A DNA stretch of 39,024 nt, taken from assembly GCA_020851635.1 (NCBI GenBank), contig JADZCJ010000134.1, positions 1-39,024 of the forward strand. Direction: 5' to 3'. Below are positions 9,971-37,649 of the stretch, piece by piece. This stretch comes from Anaerolineae bacterium (lineage in GTDB: Bacteria; Chloroflexota; Anaerolineae; UBA4142; SHND01). Below the pieces are notes generated by a model. That model worked only from the letters and a program-made list of their open reading frames with translations, searched no databases and was not told the origin of the DNA. The position numbers and the translations under genes were made by a program. Numbering within the stretch: the first letter of the stretch is position 1; every line of letters starts with the position of its first letter.

Positions 9971-11026
9971 ATGTTCCGCATTTGGTTTGAACGGGGCTTG
10001 CCCCCCATCTATGCCCACCTGATTCAGGATCAGGCAGTTGCCGTGGGCCCCGGACGTTTGAACCCGGATGTTGACTTGATTGCACAGGCAGGCGCGCAAG
10101 CCGTAATTGCCTCATCACGCGTCCGTTATGACGGCGGCTTTTTTGATCGCGCCGCTCACGTGTGTGTGGTCTCGCGCACGGGCATTGGGTACGACAACAT
10201 CTCGGTGGATCAAGCGACCGAACGCGGCGTCGCCATTTGTGTCACGCCCGATGCGCCCACGATTTCCACCGCCGAATTTGCCATCACGCTCATGCTGACC
10301 GTCCTGCGTCACGTCAAGTCCGCGGAAAAAATGCTGCGCGGGACCGAACGGCGCGACTTTTTCAGCGAGTATGTGGGGCTTGAAGCGCACGGGCTGACGC
10401 TCGCACTCATTGGCGTTGGGCGCATCGGTTCGCGCGTCGCCCAGGTGGCGCGCGCCCTTGGTATGCGAGTTTTGGCGTATGACCCATTCATCACGCCGGA
10501 ACGCGCGCGAGAACTCGACATTGAACTCGCGCCCACGCTGGAATTTGCATTGGGACAGGGGGATGTGATTTCACTGCACGTGCCTCTTTCCCCCGAAACG
10601 CGGCACCTGATCAATGCCGAGACGATTGCTCAAATGAAAACGGGCGCCTATCTCGTCAATACGGCGCGCGGCGGTCTGGCGGATCAAGCGGCGCTCTACC
10701 GCGCCCTCACGGACGGCAAACTGGCAGGCGCGGGGTTGGATGTGTTTGACCCCGAACCGCCCGAACCCGGTCACCCGCTCTTAAATCTCGATAATGTGGT
10801 GGCGACACCCCATATTGCGGGCGCGTCGATGCAGAGCAAGGACCGGTTGTGGGAGCAGGCAATCTCGCAGGCGCTCATGATCTTGCGCGGCGAACGCCCG
10901 CCGCATCTTTTGAACCCGCAAGTGTTGCCCCGGCTCGCCGAACGCCGCGCCCGCGCACTGGGGAATCGGGTCGAAAATTCGAATGTCTCGAGCGAAAAAT
11001 CCCCCGCGACGGATCTGCGGGCGTGA
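9971..11026 (+). CDS. D-2-hydroxyacid dehydrogenase family protein (phosphoglycerate dehydrogenase-like), copy 2
   Basis: A 351-residue enzyme of the D-isomer 2-hydroxyacid dehydrogenase family. The Rossmann motif GVGRIG is at residues 148-153. Catalytic Arg233 (NTARGGLADQA), Glu262 (FDPEPPEPGHPL) and His281 (ATPHIAG) are all present. The N-terminal substrate domain contains VVSRTGIGYDNISVDQATERGV, a signature shared with SerA-like proteins. ATG 9971 (MFRIWFERGLPP) is chosen although the ribosome site is poor (AGAGG about 10 nt upstream); an upstream start would overlap the previous gene's coding sequence. The protein ends with a non-conserved, Arg-rich tail of about 30 residues. There is no ACT domain, so serine biosynthesis is not implied. 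Confidence 0.87.
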   Translation: MFRIWFERGLPPIYAHLIQDQAVAVGPGRLNPDVDLIAQAGAQAVIASSRVRYDGGFFDRAAHVCVVSRTGIGYDNISVDQATERGVAICVTPDAPTISTAEFAITLMLTVLRHVKSAEKMLRGTERRDFFSEYVGLEAHGLTLALIGVGRIGSRVAQVARALGMRVLAYDPFITPERARELDIELAPTLEFALGQGDVISLHVPLSPETRHLINAETIAQMKTGAYLVNTARGGLADQAALYRALTDGKLAGAGLDVFDPEPPEPGHPLLNLDNVVATPHIAGASMQSKDRLWEQAISQALMILRGERPPHLLNPQVLPRLAERRARALGNRVENSNVSSEKSPATDLRA

Positions 11027-11045
11027 AGGAAAATGGAGGTCTGAG

Positions 11046-12074
11046 ATGGAACGCATGACAGGTAAACAACGCTTTCTCGCCGCTTTGAACGGCGAACCGG
11101 TAGACCGTCCGCCGGCGGCAAGTATCGTCTCGGTAATCAACTATGAACTGATGGATATTGTAGACTCGCATTTTCCTGCCGCCAATACCGAACCTGTTCC
11201 TATGGCGCAGCTCGCGGCTGGTGCGCATGAGGTGATGGGATTTGACAGCGTCATGCCGATCTTTAGCATTTCGCAGGAAGCGACGGCGCTGGGATGTGAG
11301 GTGGAATGGTCCGATACGACCATGATGCCAACCCCGCTTACCCATCCCTGGGAAGACCGCCAAGCTGAAATCAAACTGCCCGATGGGTTTCCCGATTCAT
11401 TTCTCAACGACAAATATGTCCGCTGTGCCCTCGAAGCGATTCGCGAGCTCAAAAAACACTTTGGCGACGAGGTCATGATTCTCGGCAAAGTGATGGGTCC
11501 CTGGACGTTGTCGTATCATATGTACAATGTGCAGGAATTTTTATACGACACGATCATGGACCCCGACCGCGTGCGCTTGTCGCTGGAAACTCTAAAGGTG
11601 GTGCCGATTACTTTTGCCAGGGCGCAGCTCGCGGCAGGCGCGGATGCGATTCTGTGGGCAGATCACGCGACGGGCGATCTCGTCCGCAACACCACCTACC
11701 GCGATTTTCTTTTGCCCCTGCATCAGGAATTGGTCCCACAGGTGCCTGCGCCCGTCATTCTGCACTGTTGCGGACCAACGCTCGACCGCATTCAATATTT
11801 CCGTCAGGCGGGGTTCAGCGCATTCCATTTCGAGTCCCAGGTCCCGCCCGACAAAGCGATCGCCGAAACGCAGGATAAAATCAAACTCGCGGGCAACATC
11901 AACAACCCCGTAACCCTGTTCTCGCGCGGCCCCGCCGAGGTCCGCTTCGAAGCGCAACGCGCCATAGACGCCGGTGTTCACATCATCGCGCCCGAATGTG
12001 CCGTCCCCTTGCAGACCACCGTTGAGAACTTGAAGGAAATCGTCGCCACCTGCGAGGACAACCGCAAAAACTAA
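11046..12074 (+). CDS. UroD-family methylcobamide methyltransferase, MtaA/MtbA-like
   Basis: A 342-residue TIM-barrel protein of the uroporphyrinogen decarboxylase superfamily. It carries the zinc-thiolate methyltransferase motif rather than heme-enzyme features: His240 and Cys242 in VILHCCGPTLDR, and Cys318 in APECAVPLQTT. This H-x-C...C spacing matches the zinc ligands of MtaA/MtbA, the enzymes that move a methyl group from a methylated corrinoid protein to a thiol, as I recall them. The N-terminus MTGKQRFLAALNGEPVDRPP is typical of the family. The gene sits 67 nt before a corrinoid protein gene and near metF, so the likely role is methyl transfer to or from that corrinoid protein. Whether it acts as MT1 (substrate demethylation) or MT2 (transfer to an acceptor) cannot be decided here. 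ATG follows GGAGGT at 5 nt. Confidence 0.85.
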   Translation: MERMTGKQRFLAALNGEPVDRPPAASIVSVINYELMDIVDSHFPAANTEPVPMAQLAAGAHEVMGFDSVMPIFSISQEATALGCEVEWSDTTMMPTPLTHPWEDRQAEIKLPDGFPDSFLNDKYVRCALEAIRELKKHFGDEVMILGKVMGPWTLSYHMYNVQEFLYDTIMDPDRVRLSLETLKVVPITFARAQLAAGADAILWADHATGDLVRNTTYRDFLLPLHQELVPQVPAPVILHCCGPTLDRIQYFRQAGFSAFHFESQVPPDKAIAETQDKIKLAGNINNPVTLFSRGPAEVRFEAQRAIDAGVHIIAPECAVPLQTTVENLKEIVATCEDNRKN

Positions 12075-12141
12075 ATTCAGCGGAGCGGCTTCGGTCACTT
12101 TTGACCGCTGTCCGCCGCCCAATTCCAAGAGGTGAAATTAA

Positions 12142-12888
12142 ATGAGTCGCGAACAAGAAATCAAACAAGGACTGTTCGACAACACCCTGACCGGCAACCG
12201 CAAAGCTGTCGAAGAGCTGACCAACGAAGGCGTGGCGCTGGGTATGACGCCGATGGATATGCTCTTTGGCGCGTTGATTCCGTCCCTGCAAGAAGTCGGG
12301 CGGCGTTTTGAAGTGGGCGATTATTTCGTTCCCGAAATGTTGGTCGCGGCTAAAGCGATGCAGGGCGCAATGACTATTTTGCGCCCGCTTCTGGTCGCGT
12401 CCGGCGCCAAACCTATTGCTACTGTCCTCATGTTCACCGTCAAGGGCGACGTGCACGACATTGGCAAAAATCTTTGCAACATCATGCTCGAAGGCGCGGG
12501 CTTTACTGTCATAGACCTCGGCGTCAACTGTTCAACCGACAAGATGATGGCTGCCATCAAACAACACAATCCTCCGATTGTCGGCATGTCCGCCTTTTTG
12601 ACCACCACCATGCCCGTGTTCAAAGTGAATATCGAAGCATTGACCAAAGAGGGGCTGCGCGACAAGATCCGCGTTATGGTGGGCGGCGCGCCGGTTACAC
12701 AGGAATACGCAAACCGCATGGGCGCCGACGGTTATGCTCTGGATGCCAACTCTACCGTGCGCCTCGCCAAGCAGTTCGCGGCAGAGATGGGATATGATGT
12801 TGGCGATGGCCAGGTCAAAAAGGAACTCTCGGATGCCGTCCAAGCGGTCGAAGAAATGATGAACAAAGCCGAGGTCCATGAAACATAG
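12142..12888 (+). CDS. Methyltransferase cognate corrinoid protein (MtaC/MtbC/MttC type)
   Basis: A 248-residue cobamide-carrying methyl shuttle. Residues about 5-88 form the helical cap (B12-binding_2; VGRRFEVGDYFVPEMLVAA). Residues about 92-215 form the B12-binding Rossmann fold with GDVHDIGKN: Asp103, His105 (lower axial cobalt ligand) and Gly108 of the DxHxxG motif. The later VGGAPVTQEYANRMGADGYA is the family's second cobamide-contacting stretch. AGAGGTGA precedes the ATG by 7 nt. It lies directly after the MtaA-like gene, with a second UroD-family protein and MetF downstream. The expected cycle is methyl transfer from a methylated substrate to Co(I), then onward to tetrahydrofolate or another acceptor. 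A reductive activator would be needed and is not in the window. Confidence 0.93.
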   Translation: MSREQEIKQGLFDNTLTGNRKAVEELTNEGVALGMTPMDMLFGALIPSLQEVGRRFEVGDYFVPEMLVAAKAMQGAMTILRPLLVASGAKPIATVLMFTVKGDVHDIGKNLCNIMLEGAGFTVIDLGVNCSTDKMMAAIKQHNPPIVGMSAFLTTTMPVFKVNIEALTKEGLRDKIRVMVGGAPVTQEYANRMGADGYALDANSTVRLAKQFAAEMGYDVGDGQVKKELSDAVQAVEEMMNKAEVHET

Positions 12889-12893
12889 GAGTG

Positions 12894-12921
12894 GTACGAC
12901 AAATTTACAAATTTGTCCTAC
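12894..12921. repeat. Intergenic inverted repeat
   Basis: GTACGACAAATTT pairs with AAATTTGTCCTAC around a 2-nt loop (12 of 13 pairs). It begins six bases after the corrinoid gene and overlaps a possible TTG start (12913) of the next gene. The half-site AATTTGTCCTA also occurs at about 8927-8937, and a relative GTAGGACGAATTTG at about 24926. This suggests a dispersed short repeat family. Confidence 0.55.
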
Positions 12922-12939
12922 TTTTCAACGGAGCCATCA

Positions 12940-13935
12940 GTGACAGACAAAGTAGTACTCGTAACGGACTATACCTGGTCATCCACCGAGCCCGAGGCCC
13001 GGGTGTTGGCAGAGGTGGGCGCATCCCTTCTAACCGCGGAAACTGGGAGCGAGCAAGAACTTGTCAAACTTGTCCCCGAAGCGGATGCGATTCTCACCTG
13101 CTTTGCGCACGTGACGCCCAAGGTGGTCCGGGCGGGCAAGAAACTGCAAATCATCGGGCGTTATGGCATCGGCGTGGATAACATTGCCGTGGACCAAGCC
13201 ACAGAACTCGGCATTCCCGTGACCAATGTGCCCGCGTACTGTTTGGACGAGGTCGCCGAGCACGCGCTCGCGTTCTTTTTCTCGCTGGCGCGGCATGTAT
13301 GCAGTTACGATTCGGCGGTGCGCGCAGGCAACTGGGAACTCAAAACCGGCATGCCCATGTTTCGTATGGCGGGGCGCACGCTGGGTATTCTCGGTTTTGG
13401 CAAAATCGGACAGACACTCGCCGCAAAAGCGCGCGGCTTGGGTTTCAAACTGATCGCTCATGACCCTTTTCTGCCCGCAGGGGTCTTTGTCCAGCATCAT
13501 ACTGAATCGGTAAGTCTCGACGAGCTCTTTTCCCGTGCCGATTGCATCAGCGTCCACATGCCGCTTTCGCCGCAAACGCGCCATATGGTCAATCGGGATC
13601 TCTTGCGCAGAATGAAACCGACCGCGTTCCTCGTCAATACCTCGCGCGGCGGCGTCATTGACCAGTCCGCGCTGCTGCTTGCGCTGCACGAAGGTTGGCT
13701 GGCGGGTGCAGGGCTGGATGTCTTCGAGCCCGAACGACTCCCACCGGGACATCCTCTGTTGAACGCGCCGAATCTTTTGGCGACCCCACACGTGGCATTC
13801 TATTCTGAAGAATCGGTTGTCGAACTTGAAACCAAAGCAGCACAGAATGTTGCAGACCTTTTGTCGGGACGCCGCCCGGATCATGTCGTTAACCCAGAAG
13901 TTTTGAAACTCCCGCGCTGGGCCCACCTGAAATAA
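12940..13935 (+). CDS. D-2-hydroxyacid dehydrogenase family protein, copy 3
   Basis: A 331-residue enzyme closest in style to phosphoglycerate-dehydrogenase-like C-terminal-binding-protein relatives (RYGIGVDNIAVDQATELG, AGAGLDVFEPERLPPGHPLL). The Rossmann motif GFGKIG is at 152-157; catalytic residues are Arg236 (NTSRGGVIDQ), Glu265 and His284 (ATPHVAFYSEES). GTG at 12940 is preferred because ACGGAG lies 6 nt upstream; TTG at 12913 would start inside an inverted repeat. The gene is inserted between the corrinoid protein and the second UroD-family gene, which links it to the demethylation module by position. The substrate is probably a 2-hydroxy/2-oxo acid; which one cannot be read from sequence. 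Confidence 0.88.
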   Translation: MTDKVVLVTDYTWSSTEPEARVLAEVGASLLTAETGSEQELVKLVPEADAILTCFAHVTPKVVRAGKKLQIIGRYGIGVDNIAVDQATELGIPVTNVPAYCLDEVAEHALAFFFSLARHVCSYDSAVRAGNWELKTGMPMFRMAGRTLGILGFGKIGQTLAAKARGLGFKLIAHDPFLPAGVFVQHHTESVSLDELFSRADCISVHMPLSPQTRHMVNRDLLRRMKPTAFLVNTSRGGVIDQSALLLALHEGWLAGAGLDVFEPERLPPGHPLLNAPNLLATPHVAFYSEESVVELETKAAQNVADLLSGRRPDHVVNPEVLKLPRWAHLK

Positions 13936-13964
13936 CGCGCCCATGCCTTCTGGCGAGGTGAATC

Positions 13965-15116
13965 ATGAATACCGTAGAACGCTTTCGGGCTGCCTATACG
14001 GGCAAGCCAATTGATCGAATTCCGATTGTCGCATGGATTGGAATGCCTTTACTCGAGACAATGCTGGGCAAGAGCATTCCGACCATTCTGCGCGAGCATG
14101 TCGAAAATCCTTTGCCCCTGATTGAACTGCAAGAGCAGTTGGGTCTCGATCCCATCGTCGTGACCGTAGACGACCGCTGGTTCTCGATGCACAACTATTG
14201 GCGCTTTTTGTACAGTTGGTCGGCCGAAGGTCTGGAGCATTGGAATGTACAACAGCGCGTCGTCGAGCGTGGCAGGGGATTTGTTACGTACGACTTTACG
14301 GTGGATACGTCCGAGGGTGTGCTGGACTGGGGCTATACTGTCGGCAACGCGCAGGTAAGCGAAAACGCGCGCCCCATCAAACAAGAGGACGATCTCGAAC
14401 TCTTGCGCAAATACATGCCTTCGCCCGAGACCCTCGATCATACCAAACTCTCTGCCATGATTGAAACCGTAGGCGACCGCGCGTTTTTTACGCACAATTT
14501 CATCGGTGTCTGGGGCGAAGCGGCAAACATGCGCGGGTTGATTGCGCTCTGCACGGACCTCTACGAGCGTCCTGAATTTGTGCATCGTCTTTCGGAATTC
14601 CTTACCGAACGCTCCGTGAGGCGCGTCAAACATCTCGCGAGCACGGGCATCCATTCGATTCTCTATGATCAGAGCTGGATTGGGATCGGACTTTCACCCG
14701 CCGTCTACCGCGAATTTATCCTACCATACGACAAGCAAGTGGTGCATGCGGCGCAAGAAGCGGGGATCCTGGTCAGTTATCACAACTGCGGTCGCGGCAC
14801 CGTCTTTTTACAAGATATGGTATCCACCGGCGCGGAGGCGTTGGAAACCCTGACGCCCAAATCCAGTTCCGGTGATTTTGACCTCGCAACCGTAAAGGAA
14901 CAGGTTGGCAGCCAGATTACTCTGAACGGCGGCTTTAACGAACGGTTGCTTGGCGAGGCATCCGCCGACGAGGTGCGTGACGAAGTGAAACGGTGTCTCG
15001 ACGCGGCAGCGGCGGATGGGCGTTACATTCTCCGCGCCTGTGGGCAGGTCTTTGACGTTGCTCCGGGCAACTGGCACGCCTTTACCGACACCGCACGCGA
15101 ATACGGAAAACTTTGA
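13965..15116 (+). CDS. UroD-family protein, second methyltransferase-like paralogue
   Basis: A 383-residue protein of the uroporphyrinogen decarboxylase superfamily, clearly diverged from the one at 11046. Possible zinc ligands are His273 and Cys275 (SYHNCGRGT) and Cys359 (ILRACGQVF), again an H-x-C...C pattern. The N-terminus NTVERFRAAYTGKPIDRIP is family-typical. The gene is followed by metF with a 4-nt TTGA overlap, so expression is coupled. Close linkage to a corrinoid protein and MetF makes a methyltransferase role more likely than heme synthesis. It could be the substrate-specific MT1, with the MtaA-like protein acting as MT2, or the reverse. AGGTGA precedes the ATG. Confidence 0.82.
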   Translation: MNTVERFRAAYTGKPIDRIPIVAWIGMPLLETMLGKSIPTILREHVENPLPLIELQEQLGLDPIVVTVDDRWFSMHNYWRFLYSWSAEGLEHWNVQQRVVERGRGFVTYDFTVDTSEGVLDWGYTVGNAQVSENARPIKQEDDLELLRKYMPSPETLDHTKLSAMIETVGDRAFFTHNFIGVWGEAANMRGLIALCTDLYERPEFVHRLSEFLTERSVRRVKHLASTGIHSILYDQSWIGIGLSPAVYREFILPYDKQVVHAAQEAGILVSYHNCGRGTVFLQDMVSTGAEALETLTPKSSSGDFDLATVKEQVGSQITLNGGFNERLLGEASADEVRDEVKRCLDAAAADGRYILRACGQVFDVAPGNWHAFTDTAREYGKL

Positions 15117-16132
15117 GCCAATCAAACATGAGCGTTCATGAATCCAAACCAATGCGCGCCGGGGGGCGTCTCGAACGCGTCCTCCGCGCCGGACTCTTTG
15201 CCGTAACCGCAGAACTGAACGCGCCCGACTCGGCGGCGCCGCAAGAAGTTTATGACGCCGCGCTCGTGCTTTCCGAAGTGGCGGATGCGATCAATGCGAC
15301 CGATGCCGCGGGGGCGAACGTTCACATGTCGTCGCTGGGCATGTGCGCGCTGCTTGTGCGGGCGGGTTATGAGGTCGTTCTGCAAATGTCCTGCCGCGAC
15401 CGGAATCGCATTGCCCTGCAGGGCGATCTGCTCGGCGCCGCGGCGCTGGGCGTCAAAAATGTCTTGTGCATTACGGGGGACGATGTGACGGCGGGGGACC
15501 AACCCGCAGCCAAGCGCGTATTCGATTTCGATTCGGTCCAACTTTTACGCACCGTGACGTTGATGCGTGACCGCGGGACGTTTTTGAGCGGGCGCAAGCT
15601 CTCGACTCGCCCCAACATTTTTGTCGGCGCGGTTGAAAACCCGTTTGCGCCGCCACTGCCGTGGCGTCCCGAACGCGTGGGCAAAAAGATCGCGGCGGGC
15701 GCCGAGTTTCTTCAAACCCAATACGTGTTTGATATCGAAATCTTTCGCAATTTCATGAAACGCATCGTGGACCTGGGTTTTCACGAACGGATTTATATTC
15801 TCGCGGGCGTCGGACCCCTGCGTTCACCCAAAGTCGTCGAGTTTATGCGCAACAAGGTGCCGGGCGTGGTCATTCCCGATGCGCTCGTCAAGCGCATGAA
15901 CGACACGCCCAAAGCGCGCGGGCAGGAAGAGGGCATGCAAATCTGTGTCGAGCTGATTCAACAGATTCGTGAAATCGAGGGCGTGGCAGGCGTGCATGTC
16001 ATGGCATATCGTCAGGAAGAAATGGTCGCTGAAATCATCCACCGCGCGGGTCTCTTGCCGCGTTTGAAACTCAAGGACCTGGTTCCGGTCAAACAAACTG
16101 CGCCGCAGGTCTCGGCGGCGGTGACGGTATGA
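15113..16132 (+). CDS. metF: Methylenetetrahydrofolate reductase, MetF family
   Basis: A 339-residue flavin TIM-barrel enzyme that interconverts methyl-THF and methylene-THF. Visible family features are the catalytic-type Glu34 (FAVTAELNAP), QMSCRDRNRIALQGDLLGAA, VLCITGD, and FLQTQYVFDIEIFRNFM, followed by YILAGVGPLRS. It resembles the MetF partner of acetogen-type MetF/MetV pairs; a metV-like gene is at 24980. The start is taken as TTG at 15113, overlapping the previous stop (TTGA) with GGA about 5 nt upstream; ATG 15128 is an equal alternative. The stop overlaps the next ATG (ATGA). After corrinoid-dependent demethylation it would oxidise methyl-THF; run in reverse it could supply methyl groups. 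Confidence 0.9.
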   Translation: MSQSNMSVHESKPMRAGGRLERVLRAGLFAVTAELNAPDSAAPQEVYDAALVLSEVADAINATDAAGANVHMSSLGMCALLVRAGYEVVLQMSCRDRNRIALQGDLLGAAALGVKNVLCITGDDVTAGDQPAAKRVFDFDSVQLLRTVTLMRDRGTFLSGRKLSTRPNIFVGAVENPFAPPLPWRPERVGKKIAAGAEFLQTQYVFDIEIFRNFMKRIVDLGFHERIYILAGVGPLRSPKVVEFMRNKVPGVVIPDALVKRMNDTPKARGQEEGMQICVELIQQIREIEGVAGVHVMAYRQEEMVAEIIHRAGLLPRLKLKDLVPVKQTAPQVSAAVTV

Positions 16133-25528: not shown

Positions 25529-26998
25529 ATGCAACACGTCCAAAATTTCATCAACGGACAATGGCAAACCTCAGATTCGACCGAATATTGGGATATTCCC
25601 AATCCGGCGACGGGTGAAAACATTGCGCGCGTCCCTTTTTCGACCCCCGCCGAGATAGACGCCGCCGCGCAGGCGGCGCTAGCCGCGTATCCCGCATGGC
25701 GACGCACCCCGCCAAATGACCGCGCCCAGTATCTTTACAGATACAAGACCCTGCTCCAGGACAACGCGCAAGAGATCGGGCGCATCATAACTACCGAGTG
25801 TGGCAAAACCTATGCCGAGTCGGTTGGCGAATTACAGCGCGGCATCGAAAATGTCGAAGTTGCCTGCGGCATCCCCAGTCTGATCCAGGGCTATTTGAGT
25901 GAAGACATTGCGAGCGGAATTGACGAATTCATGATTCGTCAGCCCGTCGGCGTCGTCGCGGCAATCACCCCCTTTAATTTCCCCGCCATGATTCCGCTCT
26001 GGTTCTTGCCCTATGCGATTGCATGCGGCAACACCTTTATCCTGAAACCGAGCGAACGCGTCCCGCTGACCGCCGTGAAATTGATTGACCTCTTGCATGC
26101 CACCGGTCTGCCGCAAGGCGTTGTGCAGCTCGTGCACGGCTCCAAGGACACCGTCAACAGCATCCTCGACCATCCCACCATCCGCGCGATCTCGTTTGTC
26201 GGCTCGTCGGCGGTGGCAAAACACGTCTATAGTCGCGCGACTGCCAATGGCAAACGCGCCCAATGTCAGGGGGGCGCCAAGAATCCTGTCGTGGTCTTGC
26301 CCGACGCCGATGTGGAAATGACGACCAAGATAGTTGCCGACAGCGCGTTTGGCTGCGCGGGTCAGCGGTGTCTTGCATCCTCGGTGGCAATTGCCGTCGG
26401 AGCCGCGCGCGAGATGTTTGGTGAGGCGATTATCGGCGCCGCGTCGAATCGTCAAGTGGGCTCGGGGCTTGATGAGGGCATCCAGATGGGACCTGTGATC
26501 AGCGCCGCGAGCAAGACGCGCATCGAAAAACTCATTGCGCTTGGGCAATCACAGGGCGCAGAAATTTTGCTGGATGGACGCAATCAACCCATTCACGGGT
26601 ATGAAGGCGGTTTTTTCCTTCGCCCCACCATCCTCCAAAACGTTGCGCCCGACAGCGATCTGGCGCGCACCGAAATTTTCGGTCCTGTCCTGAATCTGGT
26701 CCATGCCGAGACGGTGGACGATGCTCTCCAATTCGTCAATCGCTCGGCGTATGGCAACATGGCGTGCATTTTTACTTCGAGCGGCGCAGCCGCGCGGAAA
26801 TTTCGTTACGAAGTGAACGCGGGAAATGTTGGCATCAACGTCGGCGTCGCCGCGCCGATGGCGTTCTTTCCGTTCAGTGGCTGGAACGAGAGCTTTTTTG
26901 GCGACCTGCACGCGCAGGGGCAGCACGCCGTCGAGTTTTACACCCAGACCAAGGTCGTTGTAGAACGCTGGCCCCGCGAATGGAGCCGCAAGTTTTAG
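25529..26998 (+). CDS. iolA: CoA-acylating methylmalonate-semialdehyde dehydrogenase (IolA/MmsA)
   Basis: A 489-residue aldehyde dehydrogenase superfamily protein. The catalytic Cys is about residue 281 in [11 protein letters not shown], and the proton-shuttling ELGGK motif of hydrolytic ALDHs is replaced by CQGGAKN, the hallmark of CoA-dependent MMSDHs. The N-terminal NFINGQWQ and [21 protein letters not shown] are also family-typical. In inositol breakdown it converts malonate semialdehyde to acetyl-CoA and CO2 with NAD and CoA. GGAGTG precedes the ATG. Its stop codon overlaps that of the opposing aldolase gene by 4 nt, so the two 3' ends are interlocked. Confidence 0.95.
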
Positions 26999-27924
26999 TG
27001 TCTGTGCCATGGCGTCGCGTATCGGTCCGCAATCGCCGCCAACTCGCACAAGCGCGGGCGTGCTGTTGTTTCGAGAAAATCATCACGTGCCGCGCCTGCC
27101 AACGTCGCCGCGTCACGCCACACCGAGCGTCCGACCAGAAACCCGCTGCACCCGTTCTCACACGCAATCTGCAGCTGACGTTTGAATGTGTCGAACGGCT
27201 CGTCGCCGGATAACAATGCCCACGGCACGGGGGACGCGGCGTTCAGCTCGGCGCACGCGTCCGCCCAGACCGTTTCGTCCCGGTCGTGTTTGGCATCAAT
27301 CGGAAATTCGACCTTGAGAACATCGGGTCCCAGCGCCCCCAGCCGTCGCACGCTTTCGATCACTATCCGCCGTCGTTCTCGCGCAAACTCCGCGCTGCCT
27401 TTTGGCTTTGTCGCATCCGCCGCATACGAAATCGGTTCCAAAAACAGGGGAATTTCGAAACGCCCGCAATCGTCCAACACACCGCGCACCAGGTCGTCCT
27501 GTGCGTCTGCGCTCACCGTGTCGGGGTTGTACAATAGCAAGAGCTTGACGCCTGTTGCGCCCAACAATTTTGACTGCTCTACGCTCCACCCGTTCAACAA
27601 AACGGTCTCGCGCGCAAACGGGTCGCCCAGATACCCCTGGTCTTCGAGCGCGCAGAGCAGCCCCACATGTCCGGGCAAAGTGTGAGTTGTAACTGCCTGC
27701 TCCGCGCTGTAAATGGGGTCCAGCAGCACGGCGCTCGCTTCGGCTGCTAGTTTACCAACCACAGCCAGTTTGATTTCGGTCAATTTCTCTGCGCTCACCG
27801 TCTCTGGCGCGTTCGGATTCACCATTACACGCATCGCATCGCGATGGTCAATCGCCAAAATGGAAAATACGCCGCGCGCTGTCGCGCTCGCCTGTAATGC
27901 CCGTGTCCGTCCTGATGACAGCAT
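26995..27924 (-). CDS. LacD-like class I aldolase (probable 5-dehydro-2-deoxygluconate-6-phosphate aldolase role)
   Basis: A 309-residue protein of the DeoC/LacD (tagatose-1,6-bisphosphate aldolase) family. Visible motifs are [46 protein letters not shown] (probable Schiff-base Lys) and [10 protein letters not shown]. Canonical iol clusters use the class II aldolase IolJ for this cleavage; a class I LacD-like enzyme next to iolC and iolA would be a non-orthologous replacement giving dihydroxyacetone phosphate and malonate semialdehyde. The start is ATG at 27924 with CGGAG 6 nt upstream; the frame remains open a further 36 codons through the palindrome at 27952, which is rejected as coding. 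It is the only - strand gene inside the iol block and is divergent from iolC. Confidence 0.85.
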
Positions 27925-27951
27925 GAATGTCTCCGGTAAACTTGCAGTTTC

Positions 27952-27992
27952 AATTGGGAACCGAAACGACGACGTCGTTTCGGTTCCCAATT
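27952..27992. repeat. 41-bp near-perfect palindrome between divergent aldolase and iolC genes
   Basis: Two perfectly complementary 20-nt arms (left arm AATTGGGAACCGAAACGACG) flank a single central A. It begins 28 bp from the - strand aldolase start codon and ends 28 bp before the iolC start. On the + strand TTTTAGCATCTTTTT follows, terminator-like, yet no + strand transcript should end here. It could be an operator, a transcription-insulating element or a REP-like insertion; the GGAAC...GTTCC ends resemble the hairpins at 29072-29213. Confidence 0.9.
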
Positions 27993-28020
27993 TTAGCATC
28001 TTTTTGCGCGGAGGCGCCGT

Positions 28021-29031
28021 GTGACGAAACAATTCGATCTCATCACCATGGGGCGCAGCGGACTCGATCTGTATTCAAACAATGTCGGTTCCCCGTTTGT
28101 AGAGATCACCGGCTTTGCCGCCTATGTCGGCGGCTCGCCCACCAATATCGCGGTCGGCGCAAAACGGCTCGGCTTGAACGTCGCGCTCCTCACCGCCGTC
28201 GGTCCCGACCCCGTCGGCGATTTCATTCTCCATTTCCTCGATCGAGAAAAGGTGGACACCCGGTTCATTCCGCGCAAACCCGGCACACGCAGTTCTGCGG
28301 TTGTGCTCGGCATCGAGCCGCCCAACAAATTCCCGCTCGTCTTTTATCGTGACAACGCGGCGGACATCCAATTGACTATTGACGATGTACTTGCGCTCCC
28401 GCTCGACCAAACGCATGTGTTTGAATTTGCGGGCACCAACCTCTCGCGCGAACCCTCACGCAGCGCCACTCTCTTTGCCGCCGAACGCGCCAAACAATCG
28501 GGCGTCACCGTCATTCTTGATCTCGATTTTCGTCCCGACCAGTGGCATGACCCCCGCGCCTTTGGCGTCGCTGCCCGGTCCGCTCTCGGCAGTGTCAGCA
28601 TCGTCATTGGCACCGAGGACGAAATCAACGCCACGATGCTCCAAGACCCCAAACAGATTGAAATGCATGCCAGCCAGGTCTCGGACGCGCACGTCGAGGG
28701 CGAAACCACGCGTGCGATCGAAACTCTGCTTGCGCTCGGTCCCCGCGCCGTCATTGAAAAGCGCGGCGTCCACGGTGCGCGCATTCACCGCTTGGACGGC
28801 ACAAAACAGGATGCGCCCGGTTTTCCCGTCGAGGTCTATAATATTCTCGGCGCCGGCGATGCGTTCGCCGCCGGATTCATCTATGGCATCGTCAATGAAT
28901 GGGATTTCTATCGCGCCTGCCGTCTCGGCAATGCCTGCGGCGCGATTGTCGTCACCAAGCATGGCTGCGCCAATTTTATGCCCACCCTCGACGAGGCGCT
29001 CGGCTTTGCCAACCGTGCGGGTGGTTTGTAG
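28021..29031 (+). CDS. iolC: 5-dehydro-2-deoxygluconokinase (IolC), PfkB family
   Basis: A 336-residue ribokinase-fold sugar kinase. The N-terminal GGSPTNIAVGAKRLGL is the first PfkB signature. The C-terminal NILGAGDAFAAGFIYG carries the catalytic Asp (about residue 280). VILDLDFRPDQW is typical of IolC proteins. It phosphorylates 2-deoxy-5-keto-D-gluconate before aldol cleavage. The start is GTG at 28021 with GGAGG about 7 nt upstream. There is no C-terminal DUF2090 aldolase domain, which fits the presence of a separate aldolase gene. It is divergent from that aldolase, with the 41-bp palindrome between them. Confidence 0.93.
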   Translation: MTKQFDLITMGRSGLDLYSNNVGSPFVEITGFAAYVGGSPTNIAVGAKRLGLNVALLTAVGPDPVGDFILHFLDREKVDTRFIPRKPGTRSSAVVLGIEPPNKFPLVFYRDNAADIQLTIDDVLALPLDQTHVFEFAGTNLSREPSRSATLFAAERAKQSGVTVILDLDFRPDQWHDPRAFGVAARSALGSVSIVIGTEDEINATMLQDPKQIEMHASQVSDAHVEGETTRAIETLLALGPRAVIEKRGVHGARIHRLDGTKQDAPGFPVEVYNILGAGDAFAAGFIYGIVNEWDFYRACRLGNACGAIVVTKHGCANFMPTLDEALGFANRAGGL

Positions 29032-29071
29032 CAGCCCCATTCAAGATGTGCGCCACGACTTTGAACAGTAA

Positions 29072-29213
29072 GGAACGAACGCCGTTTCGTTCCGATGACA
29101 GGTGGGGCGAGAGTAGGGAACGAACGCCGTTTCGTTCCGATGACAGGTGAGGCGAGAGTAGGGAACGAACGCTGTTTCGTTCCCTGCTGCCGGAACGCTG
29201 CGGCGAGCGTTCC
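29072..29213. repeat. Tandem array of 45-bp hairpin-bearing repeats (three copies plus a fourth related hairpin)
   Basis: Direct repeats start at 29072, 29117 and 29162. Each begins with a hairpin of arms GGAACGAA and TTCGTTCC (one point change in the third loop). Copies one and two carry nearly identical linkers (GATGACAGGTG, then GGCGAGAGTAG). A fourth hairpin, GGAACGCT paired with AGCGTTCC, is at 29192-29213. The array fills the space between iolC and the promoter of the next operon, where it may act as a terminator or mRNA-stabilising element. Confidence 0.85.
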
Positions 29214-29242
29214 CTACGCGTACCTCCCACATCCGCGCTCGC

Positions 29243-37597: not shown

Positions 37598-37649
37598 GGT
37601 GAAAAAGAGCGGGCTGCCAAAAAGACTTGGCAGCCCGCTCTTTTTCACC
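37598..37649. terminator. Strong bidirectional intrinsic terminator after iolB
   Basis: Arms of 23 bp (37598-37620 and 37627-37649) pair perfectly around the loop AAAGAC. The GC core GAGCGGGCTGCC is flanked by A5/T5 tracts, so it works as an intrinsic terminator on both strands. It ends the + strand iol operon and could also stop - strand transcripts from the XRE gene. Confidence 0.9.

Follow-up and report, generated by a model that had tools for sequence, protein, structure and literature searches.

Two divergent sugar-breakdown genes, one for a LacD-type aldolase on the - strand and iolC on the + strand, are separated by 96 bp, and a perfect 41-bp palindrome lies in the middle of this gap. 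They belong to a 39,024-nucleotide stretch of DNA from an Anaerolineae bacterium, which was analyzed as a whole and is referred to here as the window. According to our analysis, the palindrome is less likely to be something new than a terminator-like hairpin at an unusual site. In our preferred reading, to which we give a probability of roughly one in three, it acts as a modest terminator, mainly in the + direction, by which read-through from mmsdh is kept out of iolC. The features concerned are collected in Table 1.

Table 1. Genes and sequence elements around the palindrome (window coordinates).
Feature	Position	Strand	Basis and remarks
mmsdh, CoA-acylating methylmalonate-semialdehyde dehydrogenase	25529..26998	+	Convergent with the aldolase gene; possible source of + read-through
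LacD/tagatose-1,6-bisphosphate aldolase-type gene (LacD/PRK12858 type)	26995..27924	-	NF009498 above cut-off; ATG at 27924
Weak terminator-like match	27051..27064	+	Stem of 5 pairs and loop of 4 nt, some 50 bp beyond the end of mmsdh; consensus match only
Weak promoter-like site left of the palindrome	27915..27942	+	9/12; consensus match only
Palindrome, 41 bp	27952..27992	.	20-bp perfect arms, 1-nt centre; RNA folds; single copy
Possible extended -10, TGCTAAAAT	27990..27998	-	Overlaps the right end of the palindrome; proposed by eye, no tool match
T-rich tail, TTAGCATCTTTTTGCG	27993..28008	+	4 T in the 8 nt from the end of the GC stem
iolC, 5-dehydro-2-deoxygluconokinase	28021..29031	+	TIGR04382 above cut-off; GTG start

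Structure and flanks of the palindrome

The two arms (27952-27971 and 27973-27992) are 100% complementary around a single central base, which bears out an earlier, sequence-only reading of this DNA that had described perfect 20-bp arms between divergent genes. The same reading placed the palindrome 28 bp from each start codon; this is exact for the GTG of iolC (28021) and within 1 bp for the ATG of the aldolase gene (27924), which is 27 bp away. Ribosome sites are found ahead of both starts, GGAG for the aldolase and GGAGG for iolC, and the base of the hairpin lies outside both. When the RNA of either strand was folded with its flanks (95 and 96 nt), the folds beat those of shuffled sequences (z of -6.49 and -7.15; 0 of 200 shuffles folded as well for each strand), and in either RNA the palindrome forms a 19-bp stem with a 3-nt loop. 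The stem-loop is GC-rich, a feature of intrinsic terminators. T-rich DNA lies beyond it on the + side alone (AATTTTAGCATCTTTTT): read in the + direction the GC stem is followed by AATTTTAGCA, with 4 T in the first 8 nt, whereas the flank on the - side is AATTGAAACT, with 2 T in the first 8 when read in the - direction. The sequence-only reading was right about the terminator-like look. The palindrome was not among the matches of our terminator scan, which needs at least 5 T in 8; the same scan gave 11 matches of all kinds in 2.6 kb versus 3.5 in shuffles.

The strong fold on both strands, and the position of the hairpin base 27-28 bp from both start codons and clear of both ribosome sites, would also suit a two-way 5′-UTR hairpin, whereby both mRNAs start outside the palindrome and carry a stem-loop that shields them or serves as an RNase III cleavage site. 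The sequence-only reading had proposed a two-way 5′ UTR element or an insulator, and either may apply. One report describes an excess of inverted repeats in E. coli 5′ UTRs at a distance of about 20-45 bp ahead of the start codon (PMC6060812), and a + promoter-like site is present to the left of the palindrome. However, this arrangement would require each promoter to sit at or inside the start region of the other gene. A longer palindrome that takes in both ribosome sites was considered and rejected, as the pairing of the flanks was not clearly above that of shuffled flanks (38 and 137 of 500 paired as well), and this result also weighs against the 5′-UTR hairpin. In addition, we searched the upstream DNA of 13 other iolC genes, over as much as 300 bp each, and found no palindrome (arms of at least 10); the gene starts were set by eye, and the set includes one gene with only 103 bp of upstream sequence (L053) and one gene fragment (L055). 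On this finding a conserved iolC leader was rejected, and it again argues against a 5′-UTR hairpin, which we regard as rather unlikely.

Similar hairpins in the genome

The hairpins of this genome, defined by perfect arms and loops of up to 10, were counted in 80 stretches of 20 kb plus the window (1.64 Mb of 5.8 Mb), a non-random sample taken mostly from large contigs. The sample contained 148 perfect hairpins with arms of at least 12, 78 of which had arms of at least 15. In the first 839 kb of the sample (41 stretches), 55 hairpins had arms of at least 14, whereas the 26 hairpins of a Markov-1 control, generated once for each stretch, all had arms of 10-13. Since arms of 14 or more were absent from this control, the palindrome is real and not a product of chance.

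To place the hairpins relative to genes we used a crude home-made gene caller, which set the aldolase start at 27858 and not 27924; its calls underlie all gap and gene-end counts given here as well as the rule counts given below. In the 1.64-Mb sample, hairpins with arms of at least 15 were present in 23 of the 123 convergent gaps, in 46 of the 1091 tandem gaps and in 3 of the 123 divergent gaps. Samples from two genomes of the same genus, counted for arms of at least 13, gave 9/25 convergent, 19/175 tandem and 0/20 divergent gaps (G004) and 8/30, 11/205 and 1/26, respectively (G001). Likewise, 42 of the 60 intergenic hairpins with arms of at least 13 in the 839 kb were located no more than 60 bp from a predicted gene 3′ end; beyond these 60, four were inside predicted genes and two at the edges of stretches. 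Most of the 78 hairpins with arms of at least 15 (54) were lone in the sample, and seven of them, the palindrome included, combined arms of at least 20 with a centre of 0-1 nt. These counts indicate that long, perfect, lone hairpins with a small centre are ordinary here and are mostly placed like intrinsic terminators. Such hairpins seem to number a few hundred in the genome as a whole, most of them at the ends of genes; the palindrome is unusual for its position in a divergent gap. Perfect inverted repeats past gene ends are described as general in bacteria (PMC13155455), including E. coli (PMC6060812).

The T tail was compared in the same way. Reading outward from gene 3′ ends, the mean number of T in 8 nt was 4.3 (57 readings), versus 3.2 for hairpins of tandem gaps read in the wrong direction (29 readings). 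Because 37 of the 57 sense gene-end readings had at least as many T as the palindrome, its tail is only average. The window also has a hairpin at 37598-37649, between iolB (+) and an XRE-type gene (-), with perfect 23-bp arms and a 6-nt loop; its position would suit a two-way terminator, though its T tails are weak.

Copies and mobile repeats

Near-matches to the palindrome were sought in its own genome and in others. At up to 1 mismatch the arm had no further site in the genome and none in 297 relatives; at up to 3 mismatches both arms and five other single sites were recovered in the genome, and the reversed control recovered four. The whole gap had no match among 198 other genomes, with no more than 4 candidates scored per listed genome, and the paired core had none among 399, these sets and that of the 297 relatives being overlapping. 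There was no exact match to the arm in viral contigs and no match in plasmids, and the window contained neither partial copies above shuffled motifs nor an Rfam match at gathering scores. A genome-wide search for related palindromes, which the sequence-only reading had put forward as a check, found this one to be lone; similar hairpins in the sampled part of the genome lie mostly at gene 3′ ends. Many identical copies at random intergenic sites would mark a simple REP, and there is a single copy in 5.8 Mb; being single, the palindrome is not a REP-type repeat, the earlier proposal of a REP-like insertion is unsupported, and the REP/BIME candidate was rejected. The RAYT/Y1 transposase profile PF01797 has one match in the genome, on contig C44, and the window of the palindrome is on C134.

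The genome does contain an interspersed, MITE-like repeat with at least 55 matches, one copy of which occupies 29050-29222 of the window, downstream of iolC. It comprises two small hairpins, GGAACGAA..TTCGTTCC and GGCACGCT..AGCGTGCC, and by eye several of the 30 copies compared have inverted ends like GTGCGTCACGATTTTGG / CCAAAAATATGACGCAC. Membership of the palindrome in this repeat was considered, as its arm is alike (GGGAAC(C)GAAACG), and rejected, as the flanks and the hairpin layout differ in the 30 copies on inspection by eye.

Other hairpins in divergent gaps

In the own-genome sample, hairpins with arms of at least 13 were found in 4 of 123 divergent gaps: that of the palindrome and those of L151, L135 and L160. 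L151 has two 35-bp perfect palindromes (2308-2342 and 2505-2539), with a LacI-family gene on one side and, divergent from it, the gene of a solute-binding protein on the other, and the pair are likely operators. The sequence-only reading had called the 41-bp palindrome far longer than a normal operator, a general statement beside which this pair from the same genome can be set. The pair is also a precedent for reading the palindrome, which sits between divergent start codons in a putative promoter region, as a DNA operator, at which one or two regulator dimers would bind and control both divergent promoters. Both cases are perfect palindromes in a divergent gap; however, L151 has two copies, with 14-bp arms, a 7-nt spacer and an adjoining regulator gene, whereas the palindrome has one copy and no adjoining regulator gene. 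Moreover, it has no clear second site (the five near-matches stand against four for the reversed control), no partial copy in the window rises above shuffled motifs, and nothing similar occurs upstream of the 13 other iolC genes. The analysis likewise gave no sign of a link to the GntR and XRE-type proteins, for which the sequence-only reading had suggested a gel shift. An operator appears unlikely.

The palindrome of L135 (9967-10003) is flanked by a DDE_5-domain gene and an IS4/5-type transposase gene. Its 18-bp arm is found again at 10145 (+) and 11082 (-), on each side of the transposase gene, and this recurrence is most simply explained if two insertion-sequence ends, placed head to head, make up the palindrome. 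The L160 hairpin has T tails both ways (4 and 6 of 8) and has CCTTCGAGG in common with palindromes in L169 and L170.

Gene order around the aldolase gene

The + strand iol series runs from iolD (21121) onward, and the order mmsdh (+), aldolase (-), iolC (+) places an opposite-strand gene within a related series. Mmsdh, the aldolase gene and iolB follow one another in this order on one strand in the same-genus genome G001, as do iolE, the aldolase gene and iolB in G003. Hence in both same-genus genomes where it was located the aldolase gene is co-directional with its iol neighbours and beside iolB, whereas here it follows mmsdh in inverted orientation, and iolE and iolB are direct neighbours. 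Two further loci (L093 and L094) have, about 1.7 kb ahead of iolC and on the other strand, a piece resembling the aldolase (37% over 105 aa), and no palindrome with arms of at least 12. Of 41 iolC loci from genome contigs, among which at least two duplicate the G001 and G003 records, two had such a palindrome, about 1 kb downstream of iolC in each. Such palindromes were also present in six of 19 other aldolase loci (L073-L091), in four of them downstream of the aldolase gene and in the other two some 270 and 840 bp upstream of it. An invertible segment around the aldolase gene was rejected, the flanks having only one 9-bp inverted word in common. Elsewhere in the window, at 10983-16132 of the catabolic cluster, genes for UroD-type methyltransferases, a corrinoid-protein-like gene and a MetF-like gene stand in a row, suggesting that methyl transfer may be coupled to the pathway; the first UroD-type gene was the one tested, and the other identities were read from translations.

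This inverted position of the aldolase gene between mmsdh and iolC, compared with its co-directional position beside iolB in the two related genomes, raises the prospect that the palindrome is a relic without present function at the inversion junction, either the abutting ends of a lost mobile element, for which the head-to-head ends in L135 are a parallel, or a template-switch hairpin. The arm, however, was absent elsewhere in its own genome and in the 297 relatives (up to 1 mismatch), in viral contigs (exact) and in plasmids, which leaves no known element carrying it, and the perfection of the arms would point to recent formation or to upkeep. We therefore consider a relic doubtful.

Read-through from mmsdh toward iolC

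The 3′ ends of mmsdh and the aldolase gene overlap by 4 bp (gap -4), there is no perfect hairpin with arms of at least 10 at their junction, and the DNA from mmsdh to the palindrome has a single + terminator-like match, the weak stem at 27051-27064. Given this overlap and the lack of a perfect hairpin within it, transcripts of the + strand iol series could reach the palindrome by running antisense through the aldolase gene, and the earlier assertion that there is no upstream + strand transcript to end is unsafe. The 4 T of the + tail versus the 2 T of the - tail, taken with the gene-end means of 4.3 and 3.2, make a modest, mainly + direction terminator the best single reading. The palindrome would then be one of the many lone, perfect, small-loop hairpins of intrinsic-terminator type in this genome. 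RNA polymerase that passes mmsdh would meet at most a weak terminator, make an antisense copy of the aldolase gene and arrive at the palindrome, where the 19-bp RNA hairpin and the U-rich RNA behind it would halt part of the polymerase ahead of iolC, and iolC and the aldolase gene would each be under their own divergent promoter. We infer the read-through, its stop at the palindrome and the places of the promoters from the sequence. Counting for a terminator are the gene-end placement of the class, the lone status, the one-sided T tail, the overlap of mmsdh with the aldolase gene and the inversion of the latter. Counting against it are the average T tail, the failure of the terminator scan to list the palindrome, the rarity of such hairpins in divergent gaps compared with other gap types, and the weak + match at 27051-27064, which could end mmsdh transcripts earlier and so compete with the palindrome.

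A more general proposal is that of a displaced terminator: where the overlap of an inverted gene with the end of its convergent neighbour leaves no space for a terminator, a perfect hairpin would be retained beyond the inverted gene, in the divergent gap. An antisense copy of the inverted gene would be made and halted exactly at the next operon, giving a hairpin-bounded form of noncontiguous operon. We tested this as a rule, scoring hairpins on the far side of short runs whose ends overlap a convergent neighbour, with cut-offs chosen after the focal case had been seen. In this genome, with the focal case included, hairpins were present in 2 of 6 such divergent gaps versus 2 of 112 others (p 0.012), the second of the two positive gaps being that of the insertion-sequence ends. 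Pooling with two relatives gave 2/11 versus 3/152 (p 0.037), and the two relatives alone gave 0/5. Other cut-offs gave p values of 0.03-0.2, the looser ones 0.14-0.19, and no association was seen when the gaps were split according to whether the convergent gap contained a hairpin (p 0.2-1). The rule is suggestive in this genome, but independent support for it was not found, which also counts against the terminator reading, and we consider a displaced terminator quite improbable.

Discussion

We found no reason to call the palindrome categorically new. On its own it means little: a striking, lone palindrome in a divergent gap turns out to be of a type that abounds in this Chloroflexi genome. 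A cruciform that senses supercoiling was considered as a further candidate. Divergent expression is also known to arise from bidirectional promoters (PMC12825309).

With REP/BIME and MITE-like repeats the palindrome has in common that it is palindromic intergenic DNA; it differs in being single copy, and the MITE-like repeat of its own genome is another sequence. It resembles intrinsic (Rho-independent) terminators in its perfect stem, small loop, lone occurrence and A/T at both ends, but it lies between two start codons, its T run is short (4/8) and interrupted, and its centre is 1 nt. The closest parallel in gene layout is the noncontiguous operon, described as an arrangement with an opposite-strand gene inside a related series (PMC7154746), and both it and the present locus have an opposite-strand gene in a + series with overlapping convergent ends. 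In the noncontiguous operon, according to the same source, one mRNA runs through (PMC7154746), whereas at the present locus the hairpin may stop the transcript. If antisense read-through does stop here, the locus would offer a clear example from nature of a terminator placed so as to insulate a promoter within a mixed-strand gene series.
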